Source: Nitrospirota bacterium (GTDB lineage Bacteria > Nitrospirota > Thermodesulfovibrionia > Thermodesulfovibrionales > JdFR-88). From it: 37,790 bases of DNA. Under the pieces are notes generated by a model that was not told where the DNA came from, made no database searches, and worked only from the letters and a program-made list of their open reading frames with translations. Each line of letters starts with the position of its first letter. Position 1 is the stretch's first letter. Position numbers and translations under genes: made by a program. The stretch spans positions 1 through 37,790 of the forward strand of contig JAJYJB010000016.1 of the NCBI GenBank assembly GCA_021789735.1. Reading direction: 5' to 3'. Positions 1,306 through 18,376 of the stretch are shown piece by piece.

Positions 1306-1430
1306 ACTGGACGGGATCCGCCCATAAGAATCCTCGAAAAGCCAAAAAAAATTTAAAAGTCTATCTGCCCATCTGTCTGCCCGTCACGTATTTCCTGTAC
1401 TTGAAAATAGAGGTGGCCCCCATTGCCCCT

Positions 1431-2264
1431 TTATTGCTTATACATCATCTCCCGCGCCGGGAAAAGCATCCACTTCTCACCCGGCCCAAACGTCCACTGA
1501 TAGGCGAAATAGCCAAGTATCTCATTTGGCCCGTGGATGTCCTTTCCCACGGAAAAAAGTATGTGGTGCTCATCGCTCAGGTTGTAGTAACCTCCCGCGT
1601 TGACCAGGGTCTCATCGCTTTGCCCGTCCGCCTGGGGCCCGTGGCTGAAGACCTCGGCGCCAAGGGTGAGCTTCTCCGAGAGGTCGCGCTGCAGAAGCCA
1701 GCCGCCAAACAGGAAGCTCCTGTTGCCGGTCCCGGGATGGTATTCTACGCCTCCTCCTCCGCAGGTGGTCCATGGCCCATGGCTCTTCCGTATCCAGACC
1801 GGCAGATAGAGGTTCGCGTTTGGCTCATCGAGGCCGGGCGAGGTATGCGTTGGCAGATGCAAAAGTGGGAATATGCCAACCTGCGGACGCCACCCGGTTT
1901 CTTCCTCGTGTATGAAGCGGTACTTTACGCCAAGCTCCAGGTTTCCAAGGCCATACTGAGCGGAGCCGTCGCCCGGCGCGTTGTAGGCCATCGGCACCAG
2001 CAGGTGGAGCTGGACATCCGGGACGACGCCATAGTTGACCTCGAAGTGCGGCATCGTGCCCACCACGTCGCGCTGCCTGTCGCGGGACCACTGGGAGGCT
2101 ATGTAGACCTCCCAGTGCCTGTACTTGACGGGCACGGGGTCGTCCGTAAAAAAGGGGGGCCCGGCCCAGGCACGCACCTGCGCAAGCAGCACCAGCAGGC
2201 CCGGCAAAAAGACACAGAAAAAAAAGAAAAAACCTGTTGCGGCAACAGCGGGTGGCCTTCTCAT
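1431..2264 (-). CDS. Outer-membrane beta-barrel protein, phenol-degradation MetA-like (transporter-type) family
   Basis: This 277-residue exported protein has a long hydrophobic signal segment (about residues 8-33, with a run of Phe) ending near AWAGPPFFTDDP. The body is rich in alternating aromatic/polar segments, such as VEYHPGTGNRSFLFGGWLLQ and ILGYFAYQWTFGP, as in outer-membrane barrels. The mature start with TDDP and the VPDVQLHLLVPM segment resemble the family often annotated transporter / MetA-like (PF13557 type). The protein at 17612-18376 has the same architecture (TDDAY, ADIVLTLPY), so the two look like paralogues. The start has a good GAGGAG nine bases upstream. It is divergent from a CDF metal exporter. 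A role in passage of small molecules or metals is inferred; the substrate is unknown. Confidence 0.75.
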   Translation of the reverse strand: MRRPPAVAATGFFFFFCVFLPGLLVLLAQVRAWAGPPFFTDDPVPVKYRHWEVYIASQWSRDRQRDVVGTMPHFEVNYGVVPDVQLHLLVPMAYNAPGDGSAQYGLGNLELGVKYRFIHEEETGWRPQVGIFPLLHLPTHTSPGLDEPNANLYLPVWIRKSHGPWTTCGGGGVEYHPGTGNRSFLFGGWLLQRDLSEKLTLGAEVFSHGPQADGQSDETLVNAGGYYNLSDEHHILFSVGKDIHGPNEILGYFAYQWTFGPGEKWMLFPAREMMYKQ

Positions 2265-2355
2265 GAAAACGGTCTCCTCTATAAAGTGAAAAGGAGGTGA
2301 TCAGGATCTTATAAAGCATATGATAGCAGGTCATGTTTTGCGGGGACTGGGGGAT

Positions 2356-2386
2356 GCAAAACCGTTTTGTTTATGCTGGGTTTTGC
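2356..2386. promoter_or_regulatory. Inverted repeat in the divergent omp/CDF intergenic region
   Basis: GCAAAACC at 2356-2363 pairs exactly with GGTTTTGC at 2379-2386. An overlapping shorter palindrome (CAAAACCGTTTTG) lies at 2357-2369. It is placed 25 nt before the CDF start, between two divergent genes, so it could be an operator for a metal-responsive repressor such as the Fur-family protein encoded nearby. No known site consensus was matched. Confidence 0.4.
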
Positions 2387-2410
2387 CCGGGCTCGTGATA
2401 TCATAAAGTC

Positions 2411-3343
2411 ATGCCGGAAAAAGGGCATGCGCATGAGCACCATCATGACACCGAGAAAAGGCTCGCCCTGAGCCTTGTGCTGACGCTCGTTGTCATGCTT
2501 GCGGAGGGGGCTGGCGGTTATTTCGCAAACAGCCTGGCCCTGCTGAGCGACGCCGGCCACATGTTCACGGACTCCTTCGCCCTGGGCCTGAGCCTGATAG
2601 CGGCCCGGATAAGCAGATGGTCGCCGGACCGCAGGGCCACTTTCGGCTACCAGAGGGTCGGCCTGCTCGCCGCACTCATAAACGGGGGCAGCCTGTTTGT
2701 CATCTCCTTTGTCATATTCGGCGAGGCCGTAAAACGTTTCTCCGCTGCGCCTGCCATAGACACCAGGCTTATGGCGGGGATGGCGACCGTGGGGTTTGCC
2801 GCGAACATGGCCATGGTGCTCATTCTCAGGCACGGGCACAGGGACCTAAACATAAAAAGCGCCTGGCTGCACGTGGTGGGGGACGCCCTTTCTTCCTTTG
2901 GCGTTATTGTGGCCGCCGTTGTGATAATATTTACCGGCTGGCGCTATGCGGACCCCCTGGCGAGCGTTTTGATAGGGGCCATAATCCTTGTGGGCGGGCT
3001 GAGGGTGGTGAGCGAGGCGGCCCATGTCTTTCTGGAGCTCGCGCCCAAGGGGTTCAACGTGGAGGCGGTCGCAAAGGAGATCTGCGATTTTCCGGGGGTC
3101 ATGGGCGTGCACGACGTGCACCTGTGGGCCATAACCAGTGGACAGGTGATGTTTACCGCGCACGTATGGGTAAGTGACGAAAAGCTTAGCCACGTGCAGG
3201 GGCTGAGCGCCCGCCTTAAACAGAGGCTCGCGGAGATGGGCATAGACCACGCGACCCTCGAGTTCCAGTGCAGCGAGTGCGAGGACAAGGGGATATACTG
3301 CGAGCTCAGAGAGGTGCCCGAAGAGCACATGGAACATGAGTAG
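2411..3343 (+). CDS. Cation diffusion facilitator (CDF) metal/H+ antiporter, CzcD/ZitB type
   Basis: This 310-residue inner-membrane protein exports divalent metal (usually zinc, also cobalt or cadmium) in exchange for protons. A His-rich N-terminus (HAHEHHHD) precedes six transmembrane helices. The transport-site residues are present: D47, H50 and D54 in LLSDAGHMFTD (helix 2) and H154/D158 in LHVVGD (helix 5). The HDxHD pattern suggests a zinc-type exporter. The cytoplasmic C-terminal domain (about 210-295) has VHDVHLW and ends in a Cys/His-rich tail (CSECEDKGIYC). No strong ribosome-binding site is visible. Downstream lie a small membrane protein and a Fur-family regulator, suggesting a metal-homeostasis cluster. 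Confidence 0.93.
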   Translation: MPEKGHAHEHHHDTEKRLALSLVLTLVVMLAEGAGGYFANSLALLSDAGHMFTDSFALGLSLIAARISRWSPDRRATFGYQRVGLLAALINGGSLFVISFVIFGEAVKRFSAAPAIDTRLMAGMATVGFAANMAMVLILRHGHRDLNIKSAWLHVVGDALSSFGVIVAAVVIIFTGWRYADPLASVLIGAIILVGGLRVVSEAAHVFLELAPKGFNVEAVAKEICDFPGVMGVHDVHLWAITSGQVMFTAHVWVSDEKLSHVQGLSARLKQRLAEMGIDHATLEFQCSECEDKGIYCELREVPEEHMEHE

Positions 3344-3420
3344 AAGACCCGGCCCCGGATGCCCTTTTTAGGGAAATGTTTTTAAAATAAGGCGATATAA
3401 AGGAGGCGCAGGGAAAAGAT

Positions 3421-3882
3421 ATGTGGATACCGCTTCTTGCCGCGCTGCATGTGGCCACCGTGGTGCTCTGGATAGGCGGAGTGGGGTTCGTGACCGTTAT
3501 CATCTTCCCCCTCATAGCGAGGATGACAGATTCCTTCGAGGCGGTCATGCTCTTTCAGGGTGTCGAGCACCGTTTCGCAAGGCATGCGAAGATCTATGTG
3601 GCGCTCACCGGCATAACGGGGTTTCTGCTGCTTTATTTCACCAGGCTCTGGTACCTCATGTTCACGTGGCAGGGCCTGGGCATCACCCTGATGTTCATAG
3701 CATGGTTTTTTTATCTCCTTGTGCTTATCTTTGAAAAGAGGATATTCAAAAAGCTGTTCAGCTCTCCGGAAAAGTTCGACCAGAAAAAAGTTTTTGCCAT
3801 ACTCGGCATTTTCCACTGGGTAGTGCTTGGGATAAGCATGCTGGCCGTTTTCGTGGGCGTGTGGTGGGCCCACGCGGGCTGA
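3421..3882 (+). CDS. Four-helix integral membrane protein, possibly CopD-like
   Basis: This 153-residue protein is almost wholly hydrophobic, with four likely transmembrane helices (about 3-28, 60-80, 84-108 and 128-150) and short basic loops. The start HVATVVLWIGGVGFVTVI, with a conserved His in the first helix and a second His (FHWVVLGISM) in the last, recalls CopD-type membrane proteins that handle copper or haem-like ligands. No firm family signature is seen. A good AAGGAGG precedes the ATG. It lies 77 nt after the CDF gene and is probably cotranscribed with it. Function is unknown; a link to metal handling is inferred from context. Confidence 0.75.
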   Translation: MWIPLLAALHVATVVLWIGGVGFVTVIIFPLIARMTDSFEAVMLFQGVEHRFARHAKIYVALTGITGFLLLYFTRLWYLMFTWQGLGITLMFIAWFFYLLVLIFEKRIFKKLFSSPEKFDQKKVFAILGIFHWVVLGISMLAVFVGVWWAHAG

Positions 3883-3900
3883 TTCCTCCGGCAGAAAAAT

Positions 3901-3930
3901 TTGACAGGCGGAAAGGCTGTTTTTTAAAAT
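3901..3930 (+). promoter_or_regulatory. Sigma-70-type promoter of the fur-family gene
   Basis: TTGACA at 3901-3906 (perfect -35) and TAAAAT at 3925-3930 (5/6 match to the -10) are 18 nt apart. The expected transcript start, near 3937, falls within a few bases of the ATG at 3940, so initiation there would be leaderless, whereas the internal ATG at 4027 would have a normal leader. Confidence 0.75.
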
Positions 3931-3939
3931 TCTCTCTTT

Positions 3940-4479
3940 ATGATTGAGATCAAAAGGACCATAGGGACGTCCAGAAAAGAAAAAGCTTCCGGGTCTCCCA
4001 AAAAGGAGAAGCCGGACAAGACGGGCATGAACAAGGAAGAGCGGCGGATCTTTGAGGAGCACATAGCGGCCCGCGGGTTCAGGATGACCCGCCAGCGGGG
4101 GCTTATCCTGGACATCTTCCTTAAAAAGGAGGGCCATCTTTCCCCGGAGGAGCTCTATGCCCTTGTAAAGACGAAAGACCGCACGGTGGGCAGGGCCACC
4201 GTCTACAGGATGCTGCGCCTGATGAAAGAGGCGGACCTGGCCAGGCAGGTCAACCTTGGTGACGGGCTGGCCAGGTACGAGCACAAATACGGCCACGCGC
4301 ACCACGACCACCTCATATGCCTGCGCTGCGGCAAGGCGATAGAGGTGCTGGATTCGGACATAGAGGCGCTGCAGGAGAAGCTTGCCAGAAAACACGGCTA
4401 CACCCTGACAGGCCACCAGATGGACCTGTTTGGCCTGTGTCCGGACTGCCTGGAAAAAGAAAAAGGGAAGAACGGGTAG
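3940..4479 (+). CDS. Fur-family metal-dependent transcriptional regulator
   Basis: This ferric-uptake-regulator family protein is a dimeric repressor that binds DNA when loaded with metal. The DNA-binding domain includes RMTRQRGLILDIF, SPEELY and the recognition helix region GRATVYRMLRLM. The dimerisation/metal domain has the HAHHDHLIC segment, CLRCGK, and a C-terminal CPDC; together the two CxxC pairs make the structural Zn site. From 3940 the protein is 179 residues, with an unusual Lys/Ser-rich head of 29 residues. From the ATG at 4027 it is 150 residues, the normal family size. No ribosome-binding site precedes 3940, so the start is unsettled. Whether it is Fur, Zur or PerR cannot be read from sequence; the adjacent CDF exporter leans towards zinc. 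Confidence 0.92.
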   Translation: MIEIKRTIGTSRKEKASGSPKKEKPDKTGMNKEERRIFEEHIAARGFRMTRQRGLILDIFLKKEGHLSPEELYALVKTKDRTVGRATVYRMLRLMKEADLARQVNLGDGLARYEHKYGHAHHDHLICLRCGKAIEVLDSDIEALQEKLARKHGYTLTGHQMDLFGLCPDCLEKEKGKNG

Positions 4480-4638
4480 CCCGGCGGCTGACAAAAAACA
4501 AAGGGGCCCCCTTGCTTGGGCTGCGGCGCGCGGAAAAAAGGCATTGCTCGCGTTTTTTAAAAAAATTATTCAGCTTCCCGAAATGAGACGCAGCCTAAAG
4601 ATCGGCCCGACAGGTTTTTTGTTATAAAGGAAAAGTGA

Positions 4639-15312: not shown

Positions 15313-16011
15313 ATGCACATCGAAGACGGGATCCTGCCGCCCAAGGCCTGGGGGTTCTGGTACGCAGTTGCAATGCTGTTCATTATTCCGGGGGTCAGAG
15401 AGATCAAAAGGCGCGTGCGGGAGAACCTGTCTTACAAGCCGTTTCTTGCCATGGTCGGGGTTGCCGTCTTTGTGATCTCGGCCATGCATTTGCCGGTCCC
15501 GGTGACCGGTTCCTGCTCCCATCCCTGCGGCACGCCTCTTGCGGCCATAGTGATCGGCCCGTTCGCAACGGCTGTGATATCGGCCATAGTGCTTTTTTTC
15601 CAGGCCATTTTTCTTGGGCACGGAGGCATCACCACCATAGGGGCCAACGATTTCTCAATGGGCATAGTCGGCGGCATTTCCGGCTATCTTTGCTGGAAAT
15701 TCCTCAGGCGTCTCAATTCCCCCTTATGGCTGGCCGGCGGCGTGGCCGGTTTTGTTGGCGACGTGATGACGTATCTTACATCGGCCTTCGAGCTGGCCTG
15801 GAGCCTGCATGGCCATATTTCGCTTCTCAAACAATGGATGATCTTTTTCGCGGGGTATGGGCCGACGCAGTTGCCGCTGGCCGTTGCCGAGGCCGTTTTC
15901 ACAGCCGCCGTGTTGCAGGTGATGTACAACCGCAGGCCGGACCTGCTGCCGGGCGTGACGGGCAGGAAAAAGATATTCAGTGAGACCGGAAAGGCTGAGG
16001 CGAAAGGATAG
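15313..16011 (+). CDS. cbiM: Cobalt ECF transporter substrate-binding membrane subunit CbiM
   Basis: CbiM is the metal-binding S component of the CbiMNQO energy-coupling-factor transporter. The start MHIEDGILPPKAW carries the conserved N-terminal Met-His whose amino group and His ligand the metal. About seven membrane helices follow, with AMHLPVPVTGSCSHPCGTPL, GPFATAVISAIVLFFQAIFLGHGGITTIGAN and the NDFSMGIVGG segment typical of CbiM/NikM. The 232-residue length is normal. AAAGGAGG precedes the ATG. The riboswitch upstream points to cobalt rather than nickel. Confidence 0.96.
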   Translation: MHIEDGILPPKAWGFWYAVAMLFIIPGVREIKRRVRENLSYKPFLAMVGVAVFVISAMHLPVPVTGSCSHPCGTPLAAIVIGPFATAVISAIVLFFQAIFLGHGGITTIGANDFSMGIVGGISGYLCWKFLRRLNSPLWLAGGVAGFVGDVMTYLTSAFELAWSLHGHISLLKQWMIFFAGYGPTQLPLAVAEAVFTAAVLQVMYNRRPDLLPGVTGRKKIFSETGKAEAKG

Positions 16012-16017
16012 GGTGAT

Positions 16018-16344
16018 ATGAAGAAGAATAAGGACAGCAAGGCAGAAACTGTCGCCTGGTTTGATCCCTTTACGCGCTGGATGCTGATAGTCATGTTCGC
16101 ATTGCTTGCAATAATTTTTGTTGCGGCAAAATACATGAACTTGCATCACATGCTTGGCGGCGGCACGGACGATACGGTAAACGCCATGGCCTCCAGGGTG
16201 GCCGATGCGAAGGCCGCACACCCGTTCGTCAACTTGCCAGGCGACGCCCAGGTCGGCGCATTTTCCGTGGCCAACTTCTTTGCGGGCATGATCGTTGGGC
16301 ACAATTGGAAAAAGCTGTTTGAAAGGGAGAAAGAGGACCTCTAG
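16018..16344 (+). CDS. CbiN-like small membrane subunit
   Basis: This 108-residue protein has two membrane helices (about 17-38 and 81-95) joined by an extracytoplasmic loop of about 45 residues, the topology of CbiN. CbiN's loop inserts into CbiM and helps load cobalt. Sequence similarity to classical CbiN is low; the call rests on topology and on its place between cbiM and cbiQ. AGGGTGAT lies just before the ATG, 6 nt after the cbiM stop. Confidence 0.7.
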   Translation: MKKNKDSKAETVAWFDPFTRWMLIVMFALLAIIFVAAKYMNLHHMLGGGTDDTVNAMASRVADAKAAHPFVNLPGDAQVGAFSVANFFAGMIVGHNWKKLFEREKEDL

Positions 16345-16345
16345 C

Positions 16346-17140
16346 ATGCAGTATGTCGCATTTGACGGGCAGCCGGGCACGACGTATCTTAACCGCCTGG
16401 ACGGGCGTGTCAAGACAAGCGTCCTTTTAAGCGCCATAGTCATTGTCACTGTTCTGACCAGATGGCCCCTGGTGGCAGGCGTCCTGCTCGCCGCCCTGGC
16501 CCTCATGTACACGCTTCACCTGCCGCTTAAAAAAGTTTTATGGCGCATGTCCGTCCCCTTTGGCGTTGCCTGGCTGGTGCTCCTGAGCCTGATATTCACT
16601 ACCGGCCACACGGTCATTGGCGCAATTAAATTCTGGCATATTTCATTGCCCACCTACCGGGAGGGCATAACGCTTGGTTTCCTGATAATGCTCAGGATCC
16701 TTGCGGCGGTCTCCCTGGCCATGCTGCTTTCTTTCTCAACCCCGATGATCGAGATCCTGGCCACGCTCCGGCTTTTTAAAGTGCCGGGGATCATCCTTGA
16801 CCTGGCTGACATGATCTACCGGTACACGTTCTCACTGGGGGAAATAGCCGCGACCATGCGCAAGGCCCAGCGCGCCCGCGGGGGAGAAGGACAGCCATGG
16901 CACCGGCAGGCCAGAGACACTGGAATGATTGCAGGGAACCTGATGATAAAGGCTTTTGACCGCAGCGTCAGGATCTATAAAGCCATGCTGTCCAGGGGAT
17001 ATGATGAAGACGCCAAAACGCCGCCCCATTATACCGCTCCCGTACCGGCCAAGGATATCCGTGCCGGCGTCCTGGCAGGGTTGGCGCTGCTGTCGCTTCT
17101 CATTTGCAATTTTGCGATCGGCTGGAAAGCGCCGCTATAA
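16346..17140 (+). CDS. cbiQ: Cobalt ECF transporter transmembrane coupling subunit CbiQ
   Basis: CbiQ is the T component that couples the ATPases to CbiM. The 264-residue protein starts at MQYVAFDGQPG, one base after the CbiN-like stop. It has membrane helices around 30-75, 105-135 and the last 20 residues. Between them are the cytoplasmic coupling helices with the paired Ala-Arg-Gly type motifs KAQRARGGEG and AMLSRGYDED, which contact the ATPase. The coupling motifs are intact although no intact ATPase gene follows. Confidence 0.94.
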   Translation: MQYVAFDGQPGTTYLNRLDGRVKTSVLLSAIVIVTVLTRWPLVAGVLLAALALMYTLHLPLKKVLWRMSVPFGVAWLVLLSLIFTTGHTVIGAIKFWHISLPTYREGITLGFLIMLRILAAVSLAMLLSFSTPMIEILATLRLFKVPGIILDLADMIYRYTFSLGEIAATMRKAQRARGGEGQPWHRQARDTGMIAGNLMIKAFDRSVRIYKAMLSRGYDEDAKTPPHYTAPVPAKDIRAGVLAGLALLSLLICNFAIGWKAPL

Positions 17141-17143
17141 AGC

Positions 17144-17331
17144 ATGGATTTAATAAAACTGTCATCTGTAAGTTTTGTATGTCCGGATGGCGCGCAGGCC
17201 CTGACCGGCGCCTTGCGGAATTGCTGGAACGGGAAGGGCAATGCCGGTTCCCGCCGCTCCCGCTTGCCATAGGGCAGGCAAGGAAAGCCCTCCTTAAACA
17301 AATGGCGAAGCGGAAAGCCTGCACCGAATGA
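17144..17331 (+). pseudogene. cbiO: Probable collapsed cbiO (ATPase of the cobalt transporter)
   Basis: From the ATG at 17144, four bases after cbiQ, the frame reads MDLIKLSSVSFVCPDGAQAL, a convincing first strand of a CbiO ATPase (usual form: short head, VSF.YPDGT.AL). It then loses similarity and stops at a TAG within about 43 codons. The frame one base back reads LAELLEREG...RFPPLPLA...ARKALLKQ to a TGA at 17329-17331, which resembles the tail of CbiO/EcfA proteins. That stop overlaps the next start as ATGA, as a real gene end would. No Walker A, signature or Walker B motif remains. The simplest reading is an internal deletion of about 190 codons with a frame change. The tail match is inference. 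Confidence 0.6.
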
Positions 17332-17591
17332 ACTACAAATATTTCATCCACCGGGACTGCAGTTTTTTCCCTTGCCATGACCTTGAGGAATGGAGGTCCT
17401 GCCTTTTTTGCTGGTGCCCGCTTTATCTTCTGGACTGCGGCGGGAATTTCACTTTTAAAGGCGGTTTTAAAGGCGGCATAAAAGACTGCTCGGGCTGCAC
17501 TATCCCCCATACCGAGGAGGGATATGACTACGTCCTTCAAATTATAAAAAATAGCATGAGGCAGGAAATTACCGGGGACCCTTTCAATTGA
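17328..17591 (+). CDS. Cysteine-rich small-domain protein of the cobalt operon
   Basis: This 87-residue protein matches the Cys-rich small domain (PF04071 type): YKYFIHRDCSFFPCH, then CLFCWCPLYLLDCGGNF, KDCSGCTIPHTEEGYDYV. It has nine cysteines plus two His, enough for one or more metal sites. The domain is often found with cobalamin biosynthesis or cobalt genes, which agrees with its place here behind the B12 riboswitch. Its biochemical role is not established; metal delivery or storage is a guess. The ATG overlaps the stop of the cbiO remnant. Confidence 0.88.
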   Translation: MNYKYFIHRDCSFFPCHDLEEWRSCLFCWCPLYLLDCGGNFTFKGGFKGGIKDCSGCTIPHTEEGYDYVLQIIKNSMRQEITGDPFN

Positions 17592-17611
17592 CAGCGGGGA
17601 AAAGCACATAT

Positions 17612-18376
17612 ATGACGAAACATCATAAATATTTAATGGTCTTCTTTTTTATCGCGGGTTTCTGTTTGGTCTCCGCGCGGGCCTATGCCACCCATCCCCT
17701 TATAACGGATGACGCCTATACCCAGGGGGCAGGCAATAAAGAGGCGGAACTTGACATGGAGTATTCAATGAATGCCGATGGACAATTCGAGCAGCGGGTC
17801 TTTCAGCTCAAATCCATCATTTCTTATGGGACATCCCAAAATGCCGACATTGTCCTTACCTTGCCCTACTGGTTTCTTCGTGAGGACGGACAGGGAGCTG
17901 ATGGCATTTCCGATGCGAGCCTGGAATACAAGTGCCGGTTTTATGAAAAGGGCCATCTTCTGATGGCCTTGAAACCGGGCATTTCCTTCCCCACGGGGGA
18001 TGCCGCCCAAGGCCTTGGCGCGGGCAGGCCCAATTACTGGATCACGCTGATAAACACTTTGGAGGCAAAACCGGACCTGCTTTTCCATGCCAACGCGCAG
18101 TTCATTTACCAGCCAAACACTTCAGGGTATATAGAGAAGGCCTTTAGCCTTACCGTGGCCGCAGAATACCGGTTTGCTAAAAAAATGAGACTTGTGGGCA
18201 ACATTGGCACAGGCAACAACCCCGGCACGGTCAGCCTCACGCCCAAAAATTTCATTCTCGCGGGCCTGGTCTATTCCCCTGCCGGAAGCTTCGATATAGA
18301 TGGCGGGATAAAGGCCGGGTTCAGCCGGCCTGAGGACAATTATGGACTTCTTTTTGGGCTTACAAAGAGATTTTGA
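17612..18376 (+). CDS. Outer-membrane beta-barrel protein, MetA-like family, in the cobalt operon
   Basis: This exported protein of 254 residues has a signal peptide (KHHKYLMVFFFIAGFCLVSARAYA, cut before THPLITDDAY). The rest is amphipathic strands: ADIVLTLPYWFL, LMALKPGISFPTGDAAQGLGAG, LTVAAEYRFAKKMRLVGNIG, and a final strand ending in Phe (LLFGLTKRF), the usual outer-membrane sorting signal. It is related to the protein at 1431-2264. A TTG at 17588 overlapping the previous stop is an alternative start; 17612 gives a cleaner signal peptide. No terminator separates it from the cbi genes, so it may be the outer-membrane entry route for cobalt or another corrin-related solute. This is inference from position. 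Confidence 0.75.
   Translation: MTKHHKYLMVFFFIAGFCLVSARAYATHPLITDDAYTQGAGNKEAELDMEYSMNADGQFEQRVFQLKSIISYGTSQNADIVLTLPYWFLREDGQGADGISDASLEYKCRFYEKGHLLMALKPGISFPTGDAAQGLGAGRPNYWITLINTLEAKPDLLFHANAQFIYQPNTSGYIEKAFSLTVAAEYRFAKKMRLVGNIGTGNNPGTVSLTPKNFILAGLVYSPAGSFDIDGGIKAGFSRPEDNYGLLFGLTKRF

Follow-up and report, generated by a model that had tools for sequence, protein, structure and literature searches.

An apparent deletion remnant of cbiO in a cobalt ECF operon, and pruned operons of the same type within its genus

Cobalt transporters of the ECF type have been described in several arrangements. In the available text of a survey, M, Q and O are present in almost all predicted Cbi/Nik systems (PMC2667541), and the parts of a review drawn on here name CbiM and CbiN as the minimal proteins needed for transport (PMC7689651). 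According to extracts of two further papers, Geotalea carries a cbiMNQO operon behind a B12 riboswitch (PMC13119186), and the A-T modules of ECF transporters may be dedicated or shared (PMC3246461). A literature search, judged by titles and the beginnings of abstracts and with most subscription journals outside its coverage, found no split or ATPase-less cobalt operon.

The operon described here lies in a stretch of DNA of 37,790 nt (the window). Genomes (G) and contigs (C) used for comparison are written together, as in G001:C23. The window comes from a close relative of G001, because the DNA flanking the operon matches that genome at 87-91%; the match to G002 is 72-80%. In G001, the closest genome, the corresponding site on C27 does not carry the operon: 5.5 kb separate its SurA-like and RNB genes, and this interval has other genes (a radical SAM gene with a B12-binding domain, a P-type ATPase gene).

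The operon consists of a riboswitch, cbiM, a cbiN-like gene, cbiQ, the place of cbiO, a PF04071 gene and a PF13557 gene, in this order (Table 1). The initial annotation had described cbiM, the CbiN-like gene and cbiQ as intact behind a B12 riboswitch, and the matches to PF01891, PF02361, TIGR02454 and RF00174 agree with this. CbiM and CbiQ, two defining parts of a group I CbiMNQO system, are thus present, as is the B12 riboswitch, which is common in this group but does not define it; a dedicated CbiO with Walker A and signature motifs is missing from the operon. The window CbiM is 98% identical to that of G001:C23. The CbiN-like reading frame had no Pfam match at E 0.001, and even at E 10 none to CbiN. 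Among its 105 homologues, nine bear the JGI name 'cobalt/nickel transport protein' and every listed row is devoid of a Pfam domain, so this may be a CbiN family for which no model exists. Elsewhere in the window (1401-4494), a 277-aa reading frame has a cation efflux gene (PF01545) and a Fur-family gene (PF01475) close by. By eye this frame resembled the PF13557 gene, but it has no Pfam match, and the likeness is thus unsupported by Pfam.

Table 1. Features of the cobalt operon, with positions in the window
Feature	Position	Strand	Evidence
Cobalamin (B12) riboswitch, RF00174	14988..15173	+	cmscan 120.7 bits, gathering 31.5
cbiM, cobalt S component	15313..16011	+	PF01891 E 2e-56; TIGR00123 185.3 bits, cut-off 184.15
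CbiN-like small membrane protein gene	16018..16344	+	place between cbiM and cbiQ; homologue names
cbiQ, T component, 264-aa ORF	16346..17140	+	PF02361 E 3.7e-38; TIGR02454 149.3 bits, cut-off 111.8
5' cbiO remnant, codons 1-22	17144..17209	+	tblastn residues 1-21 (17144-17206), 71% identity, E 1e-4
3' cbiO remnant, codons 245-283 and stop, other frame	17212..17331	+	tblastn 39 residues (17212-17328), 72%, E 9e-13
Cysteine-rich small protein gene	17328..17591	+	PF04071 E 8.8e-22; start overlaps cbiO stop as ATGA
PF13557 (Phenol_MetA_deg) family gene	17588..18376	+	PF13557 E 1.2e-7; taken as the final gene of the operon

Between the cbiQ stop (17140) and the PF04071 start (17328), the place of cbiO is occupied by 188 nt from ATG to TGA (17144-17331). 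The initial annotation had reported a cbiO remnant of this length, which is real, although it starts at the ATG at 17144 and not at 17141. Compared in all frames with CbiO proteins (tblastn), both fragments align: the ATG frame opens like CbiO and the other frame ends like its tail, with the TGA overlapping the ATG of the PF04071 gene, as had been noticed from the sequence. With the register fixed, the 22 residues of the N-terminal fragment score 63-79 against ten intact CbiO, and for each of the ten this score was reached by none of 5000 shuffles. The reported lack of Walker and signature motifs also holds, since none of the six frames of 17100-17340 has a Walker A or signature pattern. A tblastn search of the window with three CbiO queries found no further CbiO, the best other match having an E value of only 0.27. 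A 75-aa open frame across the remnant was considered as a known small protein and discarded, as a protein search gave two candidates and none at E <= 10; the same search gave no sign of a second assembly of the junction.

Relatives show what is missing. Locus L001, which is the operon of G001:C23, has an intact CbiO of 283 aa between cbiQ and the PF04071 gene, the same two genes that flank the remnant, and so bears out the internal deletion that had been proposed for this site and supplies the full-length cbiO of a close relative. Compared with the 852-nt cbiO of L001, the window lacks 664 bp, which correspond to codons 23-244 less two bases. Because 664 cannot be divided by three, the frame changes within the remnant. 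The L001/L004 operon is the closest to that of the window, with a DNA identity of about 90% that starts at the riboswitch and extends almost to the end of cbiQ, and L001 and L004 are identical to each other over 3200 nt of operon; both records are titled 'Nitrospirae bacterium'. An intact CbiO also follows cbiQ in L002 and L003 (titled 'Deltaproteobacteria bacterium'), G001:C64, G006:C4, G008, G010, G012 and G013. Both ends of the gene are left, the middle is absent and an intact orthologue is found at the same place in a relative, as in a pseudogene. On this comparison, 17144-17331 is almost certainly a deletion remnant of cbiO.

The remnant differs at three residues that are invariant in the ten intact CbiO, Y13C, T17A and T263A; Y13 is presumably the A-loop tyrosine. 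Three to four residues that are invariant across the nine others are broken in the remnant and zero to two in the intact copies. Decay was also sought by codon position. The ratio of changes at positions 1 and 2 to those at position 3 is 0.27-0.40 for the remnant, which falls inside the range of intact pairs (0.23-0.48), and no separation was obtained. The broken residues are some sign of decay, and because of the codon-position ratio the deletion may be too recent for decay of cbiQ to have followed.

The genus of G002 is represented here by four genomes (G001, G002, G005 and G006) and the family by 12. Eight genus operons, including that of the window, are covered from cbiM to beyond cbiO. 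Three pieces of G002 were left out of this count: C122 has the same sequence as G001:C23, C207 ends inside cbiM and C78 starts inside the PF04071 gene. M, N, Q and O are all present in G001:C23, G001:C64 and G006:C4, and the remaining five of the eight are pruned, that is, part of MNQO is missing. The cbiO gene is missing in the window and in G005:C51, where all that follows cbiQ is about five codons from the start of cbiO and some 60 bp. Both cbiQ and cbiO are missing in G001:C50 and G006:C17, in which the opening codons of cbiQ lead straight into the PF04071 gene at similar junctions. In G005:C55 cbiM is reduced to its start and cbiQ is gone, the cbiN-like gene and cbiO being retained. G001:C50, G006:C17 and G005:C55 represent one chromosomal place, as both flanks align. 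RF00174 is found upstream of all eight operons. In six of them it is no more than about 230 bases from cbiM or what is left of it; in G001:C64 and G006:C4 the distance to cbiM is about 2.6 kb. In the family beyond this genus, a single operon of this type occurs in each of G008, G010, G012 and G013, and all four are complete; the rest of the family (G007, G009, G011 and G014) has only a distant CbiM, at most 43% identical. Of 101 genomes drawn in a survey of the order, seven have this type of CbiM (E <= 1e-60) and seven this type of CbiQ (E <= 1e-30).

Some further observations were made at these loci. Two MAGs have the same operon sequence over 3200 nt, at G001:C23 (L001) and G002:C122 (L050), while other DNA of the two MAGs is 87-91% and 72-80% like the window, respectively. 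One of the two contigs may be binned wrongly, probably G002:C122. At L044, L045 and L049 a divergent operon with distant CbiM-like genes adjoins pruned cbi operons; that of L044 also has CbiQ- and CbiO-like genes (24-39% identical across these loci), and the divergent operon may encode a nickel-type ECF system. A stretch of about 40 bases in L043 (~4100-4140) occurs at many places in G002, G005 and G006 with 78-95% identity, like a small dispersed repeat.

The two operons of G005 are complementary, C51 having MNQ and C55 N and O, each behind RF00174. The CbiO of C55 is the sole CbiO of this genome above the NCBIfam cut-off (213.0 against 211.8 bits; the next scores 164.2), and its Walker A, signature and Walker B motifs are all present. 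Its private changes number 11, against 16, 10 and 12 in three intact operons, which suggests that it changes no faster than intact CbiO. DNA flanking C51 is 76-80% like G001 and G006, as expected within the genus. G005 may be incomplete and a full operon missing from it, since it has 34 tRNA matches against 38-43 in three sister genomes. As we read these sequences, G005 would be the clearest natural case of one complex made from two operons.

Compared with G001:C23, the CbiQ of the window has a dN/dS of 0.21, and with nine others the values are 0.12-0.20. Among pairs of intact operons the range is 0.17-0.31, the upper value being that of G012 and G013, and the highest of all pairs is G005:C51 with G008, at 0.34. 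Private changes in CbiQ number 6 in the window and 16 in the intact operon of G001:C23 (15 ambiguous), and 12 in G005:C51 and 9 in G008 (15 ambiguous). The window CbiQ has ARG at the first and SRG at the second of the sites that we take to be its coupling motifs, the second being ARG in the ten others compared. CbiM of the window and of G001:C23 give a dN/dS of 0.03, and the MN-only operons G001:C50 and G006:C17 give 0.08 for CbiM and 0.11 for CbiN.

The history of the losses was addressed with gene trees. The CbiQ tree groups the window with G001:C23 (SH-aLRT 96) and G005:C51 with G008 (91). As both partners have cbiO, this suggests two independent losses, in the window and in G005:C51. The tree of CbiM and CbiN keeps the pair of the window and G001:C23 (99), but G005:C51 is not with G008, which groups instead with G006:C17 (96); the PF04071 tree has no branch above 76. 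The gene behind PF04071 differs too. The window, G005:C51, G001:C50 and G006:C17 have a PF13557 gene at this position, and G010 has a distant one (40%), whereas L001 (4569-7760) continues with another cobalamin riboswitch and genes for a TonB-dependent receptor and a periplasmic binding protein. Given these conflicting trees and different neighbours, copies of the operon may have exchanged sequence after a single older loss. In a mosaic check, for which the plainly wrong part of the window alignment to G001:C23 and G008 beyond about 17180 was unused, the remnant resembled G001:C23 no more than it did G008 or G010. For the PF04071 gene, however, dS is lowest with G001:C23 (0.34 against 0.54-1.04).

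Four explanations were weighed, and the weight given to each is our judgement and was not computed. We consider it rather probable, by analogy with the sister genomes, that CbiO is supplied in trans to the CbiQ of the window. The window cbiO would have lost codons 23-244 through the 664-bp deletion with its shift of frame; another operon of the same type in the organism would provide an intact CbiO, so that the loss could be tolerated. This CbiO would join the window CbiQ in one complex made from parts of two co-regulated operons, and a dedicated (group I) transporter would shift toward a shared (group II-like) motor. An ATPase encoded elsewhere is favored by the sister genomes because G001, G005 and G006, besides a pruned operon, all keep at least one intact cbiQ and cbiO of the same type. 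The search for a CbiO of the organism itself covered the 37,790 nt of the window; among the sister genomes, G005 has an intact cobalt-type cbiO at a locus other than that of its MNQ operon. Pruning in five of eight operons within the genus, against none among the four single-copy operons of the family outside it, also speaks for supply in trans, as does a window CbiQ that is open over 264 codons with a dN/dS of 0.12-0.21. A deletion too recent for cbiQ to have decayed, the SRG motif of this CbiQ, the value of 0.34 for G005:C51, the possible incompleteness of G005, and the minimal set named in the review together with the MN-only operons, which fit CbiMN alone, would speak against it. More broadly, and with an assurance that falls somewhat short of even, the genus may be on the way from a dedicated cobalt ECF transporter to a distributed one, with riboswitch-controlled MNQ, MN and N-O operons and a shared pool of CbiQ and CbiO driving several CbiMN pairs.

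It is less likely that CbiMN alone imports cobalt and that Q and O are lost stepwise, the window being an intermediate on the way to MN-only operons and its CbiQ a leftover. The homologous junctions of the MN-only operons at the same chromosomal place in two genomes, the constraint on their CbiM and CbiN, the minimal set of CbiM and CbiN named in the review (PMC7689651) and the SRG motif would all fit. However, G005:C55 retains cbiO without cbiM and cbiQ, and G005:C51 retains cbiQ; these two genes are open and not clearly faster than intact copies, and at least one intact cbiQ and cbiO of the same type is kept in each of G001, G005 and G006. That the operon is a spare copy in decay, with cbiO lost first, the rest to follow and no role in cobalt uptake, seems improbable. 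The same-type paralogous operons of the sister genomes and the broken invariant residues of the remnant would agree with it, but the riboswitch is present, the reading frames of cbiM, the CbiN-like gene, cbiQ and the PF04071 and PF13557 genes are all open, and CbiM and CbiQ give a dN/dS of 0.03 and 0.21, respectively, against G001:C23. An assembly artefact, in which two paralogous operons collapsed and a full cbiO was lost, is very improbable. The source is possibly a metagenome, similar paralogous operons exist in the sister genomes, and the identity to G001:C23 of about 90% until about 17050 drops to 68% over the next 120 bases, with the same drop against other operons. Nevertheless, the remnant has changes of its own at residues invariant in ten CbiO, and separately assembled genomes show other deletions in the same genes.

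These natural operons of a single genus, with their different lost subunits, bear directly on whether cobalt S components require an ATPase of their own, can borrow one or do without, and the MNQ and N-O operons of G005 would mark one way in which ECF modules could pass from dedicated to shared. Compared with described systems, the window resembles group I CbiMNQO in its CbiM and CbiQ, both recognized by curated models, its CbiN-like gene, its gene order and its B12 riboswitch. It differs in that its A component is a 188-nt remnant, while group I has its own CbiO in the operon. Group II ECF transporters use one A-T module for several S components, and a CbiO from another operon would likewise make subunits common to several loci; in the window, however, T stays with S and A alone is missing. 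With CbiMN lacking Q and O, the likeness is in the MN-only operons of G001:C50 and G006:C17, whereas the window has an open cbiQ and the sister genomes have Q and O elsewhere.
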